Of a stretch of 64,000 bases of DNA, positions 28,327 to 33,492 are shown in pieces. Location: the NCBI GenBank assembly GCA_016191165.1, contig JACPPF010000101.1, positions 1-64,000 of the forward strand. The letters are read 5' to 3'. The position numbers and the translations under genes are program-made. The number at the start of each line of letters is the position of its first letter. Position 1 is the first letter of the stretch. Source of the stretch: Planctomycetota bacterium (GTDB lineage: Bacteria; Planctomycetota; Planctomycetia; Gemmatales; Gemmataceae). The notes under the pieces were generated by a model, which searched no databases, was not told the origin of the DNA, and was given only the letters and a program-made list of their open reading frames with translations.

Positions 28327-30756
28327 TTACCTCAGCCGCATCGTCCTCAATCGCAGCGCATTGCTTACCACCGACACGGAACTGAAGCTCATGGCAGCGG
28401 CAGCGATCATCGGGTTGAGCAACAGGTGCGCCGAGATCGGGTACAGCACGCCCGCCGCAATTGGCACGCCCAGGGCGTTGTAGATCAGGGCGAAGAAGAG
28501 ATTCTGCCGAATGTTCCGCATCGTGTGGCGACTGAGATTCACGGCCTTCACAATGCCCCGCAGGTCGCCTTTGACCAGCGTGATCCCTGCGGACTCAATC
28601 GCCACGTCGGTCCCGGTCCCCATTGCGACCCCGACATCTGCTTCGGCCAGGGCGGGAGCATCGTTGATGCCGTCGCCCGCCATTGCCACTTTCCGGGCCT
28701 CGGCCCTCAGCGCCTTGATCCGCTCGTGCTTGTCTTCCGGTCGGACCCCGGCGTGGAACTCGTCAATCCCCAACTTCTCGGCCACTGTTTTGGCGGTCTT
28801 CTCGTTGTCGCCGGTGAGCATGATGATTCTCATCCCCAAGTCGTGCAGGGTTTTCACCGCTTCCAGCGTCGAAGACTTGATCGGATCGGAAACGGCGACC
28901 AGACCGGCGAGTTTTTGATCCACTGCGACGTACATCACCGTGCGACCTTGCTGTTGCAACTCGTCGGCACGGGCATCCAGGGCGGCAAGGTTCTGCACGT
29001 TTTCGCTGGCGAGCAGCGACCGCTTGCCGATGAGAACCTTCTTACCCTCAACGGTTCCGTGAACGCCGCCGCCAGTCACGGAGTTAAACTCTTCGACGGT
29101 CGGGACGGACAGGTTCCGGTCTTTGGCCCCAACTACGATGGCATGAGCCAACGGATGCTCGCTGTTTTGTTCGACACTGGCCGCATAGCGCAAAAGGACT
29201 TCCTCAGCGAAAGGGGAAGCGGCTATGCACTCCGTCAGCTTCGGTCGGCCCTCAGTCAGTGTCCCGGTCTTATCGACCACGACAGTATCGACCTTCTCCA
29301 GCGTTTCCAGCACTTCGGCGTTCTTGATGAGAACGCCTTCCTTCGCTCCTCGGCCAATGCCGACCATGATCGACATTGGCGTGGCGAGGCCCAGGGCGCA
29401 CGGACAGGCGATAATCAGCACGGCCACTGCATTCACGAAGGCCCAAGCCAGGGCGGGTTGCTCCGGCTGCACAACGGCCCACACGAGGAATGTGATGACG
29501 GCGCTTACCAGGACGGCAGGGACGAAGTATCCTGCCACGGTGTCGGCGACTTTCTGAATCGGCGCTCGGCTTCGCTGGGCGTTGGCGACCATGTTGACTA
29601 TCTGAGAAAGCACGGTGTCCTGGCCGACCTTTTCGGCAACCATCAGGAAGGAGCCGGTTTGATTGACCGTCCCGCCGATCACGGGATCGTCCATCTGCTT
29701 CTCAACCGGCATCGGTTCGCCGGAAATCATCGACTCATCGACCGCACTCTTGCCTTCCGTAAGTCGGCCATCCACGGGGATTTTTTCGCCAGGGCGCACA
29801 CGCAGAATGTCGCCGTGGTGGACCTCTTCCAGCGAGACTTCACGCTCTTGGCGGTCTTGCACGATGCGGGCCGTGGGTGGGGCCAGTGACAGTAACTCCC
29901 GGATGGCGGCTCCAGTGCGGCGTCTGGCACGAAGCTCAAGCACTTGTCCGAGCAGGACCAGCGTGACGATCACCCCCGCCGCCTCGAAGTAAACATGCAC
30001 CGCCCCATGATGCCGGAAGTCTTCAGGAATGAGCGAAGGGAGCAGCACGGCAACGAGGCTGTATAGAAATGCGGCTCCCGTGCCGATGGCGATAAGCGTG
30101 AACATATTGAGGTTCCAAGTGATAATGGACCTCCAACCACGCTCGAAAAAGGGCCAGCCGCCCCATAGAACCACCGGCGTACTGAGCAAGAGTTGTAGCC
30201 ACAAATGCAGCGTGCTTCCCAGCCATCGGTCCACCGGGACGCCGATCATGGGAAGCATCGACAGCAACAACACCGGCACGGTCAAGGCAGCAGCGACCCA
30301 GAACCGGAGAGTCATGCTCCGCAGTTCGGAGTCGTCTTCCTCGCCGTCTTGCTGGACGGTCTTCGGCTCCAGGGCCATGCCGCACTTCGGGCATGTTCCA
30401 GGTCCGTCCTGCTCGATCTCCGGGTGCATCGGGCAGGTATAGATGACCTTCTGCTTTTGAGCCGAAGAACGGGCCGGTTCCAGGGCCATGCCGCACTTCG
30501 GGCAGTTGCCCGGCTTGTCGCTCGTCACTTCCGGGTGCATCGGACAGACGTATTTTCCCGATGTCTGTTCCTCGGAAGCGGGCTTTTGATCGTGGCCCTT
30601 GTGGTCATGGGCGGTATGCGTTTTCGCTTGGGCGAGGCTGCCGAGGAATTTCTGGCGGCAATGCTCGCTACAAAAGTAGACAGTCTGGCCGTCACGCTCG
30701 GCACTTCGGGCGGTCGCTTCATCCACGGTCATGCCGCAGATCGGGTCAGTTGCCAT
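28327..30756 (-). CDS. Copper-type heavy-metal P1B ATPase with YHS and metal-binding domains
   Basis: A protein of 809 aa. An N-terminal YHS/TRASH-like domain ([20 protein letters not shown], residues 1-42) precedes two short heavy-metal-binding domains, each with CPMHPE and [10 protein letters not shown] (about 70-95 and 110-135). The P-type core has the ion-binding [11 protein letters not shown] in a membrane helix, the phosphorylated Asp in DKTGTLTEG, and EHPLAHA, with [16 protein letters not shown] near the end. The CPC motif points to Cu(I) or Ag(I) export. It is the first gene of a unit with the following membrane protein. Confidence 0.95.
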
Positions 30757-30880: not shown

Positions 30881-31378
30881 TTACTTCATCTTACTGGCTG
30901 AACCGCAACAAGCCTTCGGTGCGACACTACCGTTGGCTCCCTCATTGCGACCTTTCTGCATCGCCGAGCAGCAGCCCGAATTGGCGTCAGCCACGCCGCT
31001 GGCAGATTTGTCCGCACAGCAAGCGACTCTTGGGGTGCAGCAGCTTGCCTTCTTCTCTACCGTTTTATCGGAGCAGCAACCTGCAACCTTTGCGACGGCC
31101 TTCGTGGGGCCGCAGCACGCCTTCGCCTCCTTGCAGCAGGCCAAGCCTTCCGTGCAGCACTTTTGAACAGCGGCACAACAGCCCTTGTTCTCGGCGCAGC
31201 ACTTCTGGCCCTTCTCACAGCAGCCGAGCCGAGCGTTTGCTTCGCAGCAGGCGCTCTTTCCTTTGCAGCAGGCGAGCTTGGCAGAACAGCAGTCCTTGGG
31301 CTTTTCGTCAGCGACGACCGCTCCGGTCAGCAGCAGGCCCAGGGCGAGGAACGAACCGGCAAACAGTTTCGTAAACAT
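30881..31378 (-). CDS. Secreted protein with 14 Cys-Cys pairs
   Basis: A protein of 165 aa. A signal peptide (MFTKLFAGSFLALGLLLTGAVVA) is followed by 14 CC pairs in about 135 residues, e.g. DCCSA, ACCKG, GCCEK and KCCAE, so all 28 cysteines are paired. There is no other recognisable domain. This is a likely metal sponge outside the cytoplasm, binding copper, mercury or similar thiophilic ions. GGAGA stands before the ATG at 31378. It lies between the P-ATPase gene and a second Cys-rich secreted protein, all on the minus strand. The metal role is inferred from composition and context. Confidence 0.8.
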   Translation of the reverse strand: MFTKLFAGSFLALGLLLTGAVVADEKPKDCCSAKLACCKGKSACCEANARLGCCEKGQKCCAENKGCCAAVQKCCTEGLACCKEAKACCGPTKAVAKVAGCCSDKTVEKKASCCTPRVACCADKSASGVADANSGCCSAMQKGRNEGANGSVAPKACCGSASKMK

Positions 31379-31500
31379 GGAATGATCTCCAGTGAATGTT
31401 GTGTAAAGAATCAACGATGACTGCGCAGACGTTGAGCGCAGCAACGGGGCCATCAGGGCGGAAGACGGTTGATTAGCGAGAAGGGAGCGCAGTCTGCCGA

Positions 31501-31887
31501 TTAGCAGCGCCACACGCAAAGGAGAATTTGCAGGCTGGGACCAGACCGGACGGGGGCGAACTCTGCATCGTCGCCAATAAGAGAGCCGACGTTCAGAGGG
31601 ACATGATCGGCAACGACGTTGAAGGCCAAGTCGTGAGTCTCAGCCGTTTGGACCGAGTTCTCAGGCAATGCCGCATCTCGTTCACAGCAGCACTTGACAC
31701 TTGGCTTGGCGGGGGATTTCCCGGAATCACACGGAGGCTTCGGGGCCGTCTTGTGGCAACACGACGCCTTCTTCACCGGGGTCGAATCTACCGGGCCGTT
31801 CTGCACGAAGACACAGCACGATCCTGGCGGGAGAGCCAAGATCAAGCTCGTGACGACGGCAATGAGTTGTTGAAGGATAGCGGTCAT
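31501..31887 (-). CDS. Small secreted Cys-rich protein
   Basis: A protein of 128 aa. It starts with a hydrophobic segment (MTAILQQLIAVVTSLILALP) and then has SCCVF, SCCHK, PPC and KCCCERD, later LLCVWRC at the C terminus. It shares the Cys-Cys style of the next gene downstream and probably binds metal outside the cytoplasm. The ATG at 31887 is chosen over an in-frame TTG three codons upstream. It is the first minus-strand gene of the metal island, divergent from the MerR gene. Confidence 0.65.
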   Translation of the reverse strand: MTAILQQLIAVVTSLILALPPGSCCVFVQNGPVDSTPVKKASCCHKTAPKPPCDSGKSPAKPSVKCCCERDAALPENSVQTAETHDLAFNVVADHVPLNVGSLIGDDAEFAPVRSGPSLQILLCVWRC

Positions 31888-31997
31888 GGCACTCAATTAT
31901 ACGCAGCACGGGTCGGAAAAGTTCTCTCGCCTTCACAACTCACGGCTGGTTTCGCCGCCGTTTGACTAACTCCCGTTGACATTCCCGGAAATCGCTC

Positions 31998-32029
31998 TTG
32001 ACCCCGTAGTATGGTACGGGGTGTATGAT
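31998..32029 (+). promoter_or_regulatory. MerR-type operator and promoter
   Basis: The -35 element TTGACC (31998-32003) and the -10 element TATGAT (32024-32029) are separated by 20 bases, the overlong spacing typical of MerR-controlled promoters. Between them lie exact inverted arms ACCCCGTA (32001-32008) and TACGGGGT (32015-32022), close to the mer operator consensus. It would drive the plus-strand mer genes with metal-bound regulator. Confidence 0.85.
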
Positions 32030-32467: not shown

Positions 32468-32907
32468 TGGCACAGGGAGATCGAAATGGCGTTTGGCGTC
32501 GATGGCTGGCGGTGCTGCCTGCCATCGGTGCAGCCCTGCTGCCGAGAATTACCTGACCATGCACCCTCCCGGCGTATGCGGGCCTCCTCGGTTCGATGGG
32601 GTTAGCGTTCTTGCTCCAGACGGCGTACTTGCTGCCGCTTATGGTCGTCACGCTGTTACTGGCGGTCAGCGCCCTTGGATTTCGGGCGAACAGGCGACGA
32701 GGATATGGGCCGCTGGCCGTTGGAATCGTGGCGGCGGTCCTCGTGATCGTCGCCAAATTCGCCTGGGAATCGGACTGGATGACTTACGGCGGGATCGTGT
32801 TGCTCGTCAGCGCCTCCGTCTGGAACTCCTGGCCGAAGAAGTCCGGCTATCAACTGATCGGGCTTGGATTAGGAACTGAGTTTTCGGAACAAGTAGGAGG
32901 ATCGAAC
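32467..32907 (+). pseudogene. Mercury-transporter-like membrane protein with in-frame TGA
   Basis: The ATG at 32467 starts in the MerR stop (TGATG). The frame reads WLAVLPAIGAALLPRIT, then TGA at 32554-32556 (codon 30), then PCTLPAYAGLLGSMG and three more hydrophobic segments, staying open in the same frame. Similar proteins near mer genes, as I recall them, have a Cys at the TGA position, in a Cys-Pro pair used for Hg(II) passage. The membrane part ends near WNSWPKK and no stop occurs before the next gene. Options are a nonsense mutation, a sequencing error, or selenocysteine insertion; a weak stem-loop (CCCG-7 bases-CGGG) sits 12 bases after the TGA. Confidence 0.6.
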
Positions 32908-33177
32908 ATGGCTACGAAACGTAAGGTCGAAATCTTCAGCGCCGGGTGTCCGGCTTGCAAAGACGCAATCGCTCTCGTCCAGCAGATCGCATGTCCATCA
33001 TGCGAAGTCAGCGTGCTGGACATGAACGATGCAAAAGTGGCGAGCAAGGCCAAGAGCCTCGGCGTTCGGTCTGTACCCGCCGTGGTGATCGACGGCAAGC
33101 TGGCCGATTGCTGCACGGGGCGGGGGCCGGACGAGGCCACGCTGCGTGCGGCGGGGCTGGGTCAGGCCATTGACTGA
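32908..33177 (+). CDS. Thioredoxin-like protein of the mer operon
   Basis: A protein of 89 aa with VEIFSAGCPACKDAI, a CPAC active site, a further CPSC, and LADCCTGRGPDEATL. The fold is that of small thioredoxin or glutaredoxin-like proteins in mer-type loci. It would pass or reduce metal-bound thiols in the cytoplasm. GGAGG lies seven bases before the ATG. The frame is continuous with the upstream membrane gene, so a fusion is possible if the upstream TGA is read through. Confidence 0.85.
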   Translation: MATKRKVEIFSAGCPACKDAIALVQQIACPSCEVSVLDMNDAKVASKAKSLGVRSVPAVVIDGKLADCCTGRGPDEATLRAAGLGQAID

Positions 33178-33243
33178 GTGGACGATCTCAAGTGAGCGGT
33201 CACGGTGACTGCTACGTTCGATGTTTTCTTCGAGGAGGTAATC

Positions 33244-33492
33244 ATGCGAAAGTGGATTTTGGCTGCCTTGGTCGCAGCGCCGTTGGCCGCAGCCGGTGGT
33301 TTCGGGCTGGTCTATGCGAACTCGCAGGCTCAGTCCTACACCTGTCCCATCACCGGAGAGGTTCTGCCCTGCGAGAAGTGCTGCCCGCTCAATGAGGGCA
33401 AGCAGCAGGCTCCGGAGCAGACCTTCACCTGTCCCATCACCGGAGAGGTTCTGCCCTGCGAGAAATGCTGCCCGCTCAACGAGAGCCAATGA
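33244..33492 (+). CDS. Small secreted protein with duplicated Cys motif
   Basis: A protein of 82 aa with a signal peptide (MRKWILAALVAAPLAAAGG). The mature part consists of two nearly identical repeats of TCPITGEVLPCEKCCPLN, each with four cysteines (eight in all), separated by 14 residues. It is probably a periplasmic metal-binding protein of the mer locus. GAGGAGG lies just before the ATG; a clear terminator follows. Confidence 0.8.
   Translation: MRKWILAALVAAPLAAAGGFGLVYANSQAQSYTCPITGEVLPCEKCCPLNEGKQQAPEQTFTCPITGEVLPCEKCCPLNESQ

Follow-up and report, generated by a model that had tools for sequence, protein, structure and literature searches.

Genes at the locus

The window, a stretch of 64,000 nucleotides from a planctomycete of the family Gemmataceae (contig JACPPF010000101.1), contains on its minus strand two adjacent small genes, designated A and B here, followed by a CopA-like ATPase gene (Table 1). 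Gene B starts at an ATG at 31378, and its stop codon ends at 30881; an in-frame TTG further upstream would extend the product to 212 residues, and we prefer the ATG because it has the support of the homologs. All 28 cysteines of the protein fall into exactly 14 CC pairs, which follow one another at intervals of 7, 7, 9, 7, 7, 7, 7, 7, 13, 12, 7, 16, and 21 residues (8 of 13 are exactly seven), and when the mature sequence was shuffled 200,000 times the number of CC pairs never exceeded 11, versus the 14 observed. The count agrees with an earlier note on this DNA, made from the letters alone, which had placed every cysteine in a vicinal pair; its spacing of 5-13 residues was too narrow, the actual number of intervening residues being 5-19. 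The export that it proposed is upheld on inspection: the N-terminus of B (MFTKLFAGSFLALGLLLTGAVVA/DE) is built like a Sec/SPase I signal peptide, and B and its aligned relatives alike have the hydrophobic N-terminus and an AxA-like site (the export of A, like that of B, was judged by eye). B is without a match in Pfam, NCBIfam, or the PDB (sequence search of the PDB at E up to 1), in keeping with the note's view of it as a family without a name. A structure model computed from the single sequence was uninformative (pLDDT 47).

Table 1. Features of the A-B locus, with positions in the window
Feature	Position	Strand	Basis
Gene B, 165 aa, exported (by inspection), 14 CC pairs	30881..31378	-	Translation, Cys statistics, homologs
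Putative Sec signal peptide of B, residues 1-23	31310..31378	-	Inspection
CC array of B, residues 30-158	30905..31291	-	Cys statistics
122-nt gap between A and B; GGAG, resembling a Shine-Dalgarno site, ahead of B	31379..31500	-	
Gene A, 128-aa putative metal-sensing leader	31501..31887	-	Conserved before B at most loci
CCC cluster of A, residues 66-68, 60 residues from the C-terminus	31684..31692	-	Sequence
Cys-poor spacer of constant length in A (60 residues, C-terminal motif included)	31504..31683	-	Length statistics
C-terminal CVWRC motif of A and stop codon	31501..31518	-	Motif conservation
CopA-like P1B ATPase with YHS and two HMBD domains	28327..30756	-	Downstream of B, same strand

The CopA-like ATPase may or may not be co-transcribed with B; a weak terminator-like site lies between the two genes, at 30877-30859. 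The earlier note had drawn on the P-ATPase and mer-type genes for the function of B, and had suggested surveying planctomycetes for CC-repeat proteins beside P-ATPases. We dropped this neighborhood as evidence, because metal transport genes do not recur beside B: when neighborhoods were compared, neither P-ATPase nor mer genes were conserved neighbors, most A-B pairs stand without adjoining metal transport genes, and the recurrent partner of B is A. In the window the mer-type genes form a separate divergent unit that reads away from B and has its own MerR-type operator. This dyad (TTGACCCCGTAGTATGGTACGGGG, near 31997-32028) is situated within the merR promoter and oriented away from A, and MerR control of A-B is rejected on this ground. 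The divergent unit also contains a gene (32596-33177, plus strand) for a MerC-like membrane segment fused to a thioredoxin-like domain with a CPAC motif. Upstream of this fusion gene is one for a MerR that shows the three-cysteine pattern of Hg(II) regulators; a merA was not seen nearby. Its last gene (33205-33492, plus strand) encodes a small signal-sequence protein that contains two copies of CPITGEVLPCEKCCPLNE and has no family match.

Relatives and distribution of gene B

Matches to B were found in 6 of 41 related genomes (the window's own genome being among the 41) and in 25 of 95 genomes of its family; a sample of 392 genomes from the phylum gave 15 matches, all within the class Planctomycetia, and a search of plasmids gave none. 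The window's own genome holds a second, shorter copy (L002/L009). Across the aligned relatives the CC pairs are retained and hardly anything else is, and it is this retention of the pairs while the residues between them change that identifies B as a real coding sequence. A scan of genomes and viral contigs with a DNA pattern for CC heptads was dominated by short tandem repeats and poly-Cys frames and is useless as a census. Three of its matches have the look of genuine proteins. L034, from a Phycisphaera MAG, is a long CC-repeat protein, L119 is an exported CC protein, and L124 combines a CC/CxxC array with a YHS-like region.

One genome (G440) encodes two CC-repeat proteins with a C-terminal heavy-metal domain, HMA (L271 1426-2139 and L290 1279-2064). 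These natural fusions are the best direct evidence on the function of B, and they support a role in metal handling, as does the type of leader that B shares with metal genes (see below); the metal role proposed in the earlier note is favored on these sequence grounds.

At five loci of genus g31 (L025, L027, L029, L356, and L358) most of the CC pairs of B have been lost. The same loci retain A and its spacing, with HxHC in place of the Cys cluster of A; the two differences together may reflect a change of metal.

Gene A and its position in front of metal genes

When all neighboring open reading frames were clustered, gene A, which the earlier note had passed over, emerged as the family that recurs beside B; the remaining recurrent clusters are confined to a few loci, mostly of a single genus, and their sequences do not mark them as metal genes. 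By hand count A stands in front of B at about 34 of about 39 evaluable B loci, a leading position that is partly built into the search, since A was always sought upstream of B; the loci that seem to be without A mostly have a second subclass of A instead. The homologs of A have a hydrophobic N-terminal segment ending in LPxGWCC, CC and CCC clusters, a variable stretch, and CVWxC directly before the stop codon, and members of the second subclass have a CPC cluster and end in xLRC before the stop. The A protein of the window has no Pfam match at E up to 1, nor do 20 A proteins at E up to 0.1. An alternative TTG start for A lies at 31896. A perfect TATAAT is present on the minus strand at 31896-31901, eight bases 5' of the ATG of A, close enough to suggest that the mRNA has little or no 5' leader.

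A profile search found A in 68 of 397 genomes of the class, in 41 of 188 genera; A was not found in 44 genomes, mostly of other groups, that had been reached through chance matches of the CC-heptad pattern, in a search that had no positive control. Among 38 new loci with readable downstream sequence, 27 precede a CC-rich protein and 2 a degenerate one, and the other targets are an exported HMA protein, two YHS-like proteins (under the Pfam cut-off), a Csp-like protein (phmmer match to Csp3, 5fig, E 8.5e-5), a DUF6370 protein, three lipoproteins of the HGHK/HKPGSHGG type, and one unknown. In two genomes of genus g17, A is followed by CusB (HlyD_D23 with HMBD) and then by an open reading frame resembling an RND pump. 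A separate search placed subclass-2 leaders in 67 of 397 genomes, of which a single one may have as many as nine copies; several of 20 such loci precede genes for RND membrane-fusion and pump proteins, and one precedes an HMA protein. The window's own genome has subclass-2 loci of both kinds (L425, with a YHS protein, HlyD_D23, and ACR_tran, and L423, with HMA). A lipoprotein-like family with the motif HKPG(A/S)HGG is often the first gene after subclass-2 leaders (L385, L387, L389, L290, L427, L428, and L435); one member that was tested has no Pfam match.

A spacer of fixed length

The distance from the last Cys cluster of A to its C-terminus has a median of 60 residues with an SD of 1.9, compared with an SD of 9.6 for the length of the preceding segment (n = 50; Levene test, p = 3.5e-6). 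Subclass 2 behaves in the same way at another length, the cluster lying 71 residues from the end (SD 2.5, against 8.6 for the preceding segment; n = 31, Levene p = 1.6e-6), and an earlier count, whose sole condition was a distance of 25 residues or more between the cluster and the end, agreed on the mode. Cysteine makes up 0.7% of the spacer versus 12% of the sequence upstream of it, and pairwise identity within the spacer is below 25% in 2040 of 2346 pairs. Some A proteins of genus g31 carry their HxHC at the same distance from the end as the Cys cluster that it replaces. At the C-terminal motif both synonymous codons and stop codons vary among homologs, indicating that the motif is conserved as a peptide; its frequency is biased upward, since it formed part of the profiles used to search for A, and the length constraint is less exposed to this bias because the aligner allows gaps.

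The RNA between the two genes showed no special structure. Folding of the A-B gap (mean z about -1.3) is comparable with that of other gene ends (-1.05 and -1.35), and the pairing signal at the stop codon of A is modest (combined Z 2.4). A conserved hairpin at this stop codon, which looked good by eye in genus g31, was discarded, since folding overall was no stronger than at control gene ends.

A model for the A-B pair

What the sequences themselves show is the CC array of B and its family, the conserved order A-B, the fusions of B to HMA, the occurrence of A-type genes before other metal genes, and, within A, the C-terminal motif, the spacer of fixed length, and the distribution of cysteines. 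We propose, with a confidence slightly better than even, that A and B form a two-gene metal-response cassette in which A is a nascent-chain metal sensor that controls B, and B is an extracytoplasmic trap for soft metals. The reading of B as a trap for Cu(I) or another soft metal outside the cytoplasm draws on the HMA fusions, the export signal, and the leader type common to metal genes. B would be secreted by the Sec pathway, and its array of vicinal thiols would trap soft metal ions outside the cytoplasm, most likely Cu(I), with Ag or Hg possible. As a leader acting in cis, A would be the first to be translated and would enter the Sec translocon. With the ribosome at CVWRC and the stop codon, some 60 residues of A would span the ribosome tunnel and the translocon, so that the Cys cluster would come to lie at or near the outer face, able to bind metal; metal at the cluster would alter the length of the ribosome pause at the C-terminal motif, and the length of the pause would set the expression of the downstream gene. 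Metal binding and the identity of the metal, the pausing of the ribosome, the direction of the effect, and the step that is controlled (transcription termination or translation) are the elements that we infer.

Other accounts of the pair deal with parts of the same evidence. A and B might both be stable exported partners, B as a metal store and A as a membrane-anchored, non-regulatory protein for thiol or metal delivery whose CxWxC would be a metal site. This would fit two Cys-rich proteins that both have N-terminal hydrophobic segments, the frequent encoding of physical partners by gene pairs, and the usual role of CxxxC as a Cu-binding motif. We nevertheless regard it as unlikely: A-type genes precede unrelated targets (RND pumps, HMA proteins, and Csp-like proteins), a pattern more readily explained by a cis-acting leader than by a dedicated partner, and the spacer of A keeps its length without conserving its sequence. 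Cross-linked Cys-rich envelope proteins are known in Chlamydiae, and B, being both exported and Cys-rich, could be read as a structural protein of the cell envelope held together by disulfides, with no part in trapping metal. Its two natural fusions to HMA, the leader type that it has in common with metal genes, and a patchy distribution within the family (25 of 95 genomes) combined with a widely varying length, ill suited to a wall component, make this quite improbable.

The Cys clusters of A would also be compatible with a sensor of thiol-disulfide status instead of metal, B then serving as a periplasmic redox buffer, and leaders of the RAPP type do occur upstream of genes for DsbA and thioredoxin-domain proteins (PMC12992588). 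The targets of A speak against this account, which we consider very improbable: no disulfide-formation enzyme was identified among them, and those that belong to known families are metal proteins; the HxHC that stands for the Cys cluster in some A proteins of genus g31 likewise suits metal better.

Returning to the metal-sensing cassette and extending it to the class, we think it an evenly balanced proposition that Planctomycetia possess undescribed nascent-chain metal sensors, ending in CxWxC-stop with a ruler of 60 residues or in xLRC-stop with a ruler of 71, that control many metal operons, and that a common target of theirs is an undescribed family of secreted CC-repeat metal traps. If this is true, the class has another form of nascent-peptide metal control, with other end motifs and a measurable length rule that makes the idea of a ruler directly testable; the leader would be a sequence handle for unnamed metal-handling genes of planctomycetes, and B would be a candidate metal trap of a new type, secreted and rich in thiols.

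Comparison with known systems

Metal control by nascent exported peptides is known experimentally from CruR and CutF in Pseudomonadota (PMC9426467, PMC9973294). An open-literature search for metal leaders of planctomycetes returned general papers on CruR and on arrest peptides only, and the novelty claimed here is relative to the literature so covered. B can be compared with two groups of metal-binding proteins. Like Csp1 and Csp3 it may sequester metal with cysteines, as its sequence suggests, and Csp1 is exported too; B differs in that its CC pairs follow a seven-residue period and in matching no Csp sequence (PDB, E up to 1). With metallothioneins it shares small size, richness in cysteine, and an almost complete lack of aromatic residues, whereas it is exported, has its cysteines in CC pairs only, and matches no metallothionein profile in Pfam or NCBIfam.

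For A the closest parallel is CruR (DUF2946), the copper-responsive upstream open reading frame of Bordetella pertussis (PMC9426467). Both are small open reading frames with a hydrophobic N-terminal segment, a Cys motif, and a conserved C-terminal motif at a fixed distance, and both precede metal-related operons. A has no DUF2946 match, however, and a RAPP-like motif is found in the last 20 residues of 0 of 89 A proteins; its clusters are CC, CCC, or CPC rather than a single CXXC, and its last residues before the stop codon are CxWxC or xLRC, unlike those of CruR. The ruler is fixed in both, at 60 or 71 residues in A versus the 45 residues that hold the two motifs of CruR apart. In CutF, 45 residues are thought to place the metal motif in the SecY vestibule (PMC9973294); on the reasoning used for CruR and CutF, a distance of 60-71 residues would bring the cluster of A to the outer side of the translocon or past it while the ribosome is at the stop codon.

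CutF-like proteins (PMC9973294) and A are alike in being exported nascent proteins with a Cys motif, separated by a short intergenic region from downstream metal genes, among them HlyD_D23 and ACR_tran, and the A of the window has the size and context by which CutF-like proteins are recognized (less than 150 aa, an N-terminal signal by inspection, and a metal gene on the same strand within less than 1000 nt). The PP motif that CutF has in its last 15 residues is absent from the A protein of the window and is present in 22 of 63 subclass-1 and 0 of 26 subclass-2 proteins, and a stem-loop of the CutF type that masks the Shine-Dalgarno site finds no clear support in the folding of the A-B gap, which is no stronger than at control gene ends. 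A also has the sequence characteristics by which exported arrest peptides were sought among sec and yidC leaders (PMC10987492), namely a small uncharacterized upstream open reading frame with an N-terminal secretion signal or transmembrane segment, a conserved C-terminus, and a spacer of more than 30 residues. The best reading of these sequence comparisons is that A probably represents a family of nascent-chain sensors similar to CruR and CutF, without their motifs and set apart from them by the clusters, ends, and rulers described above.
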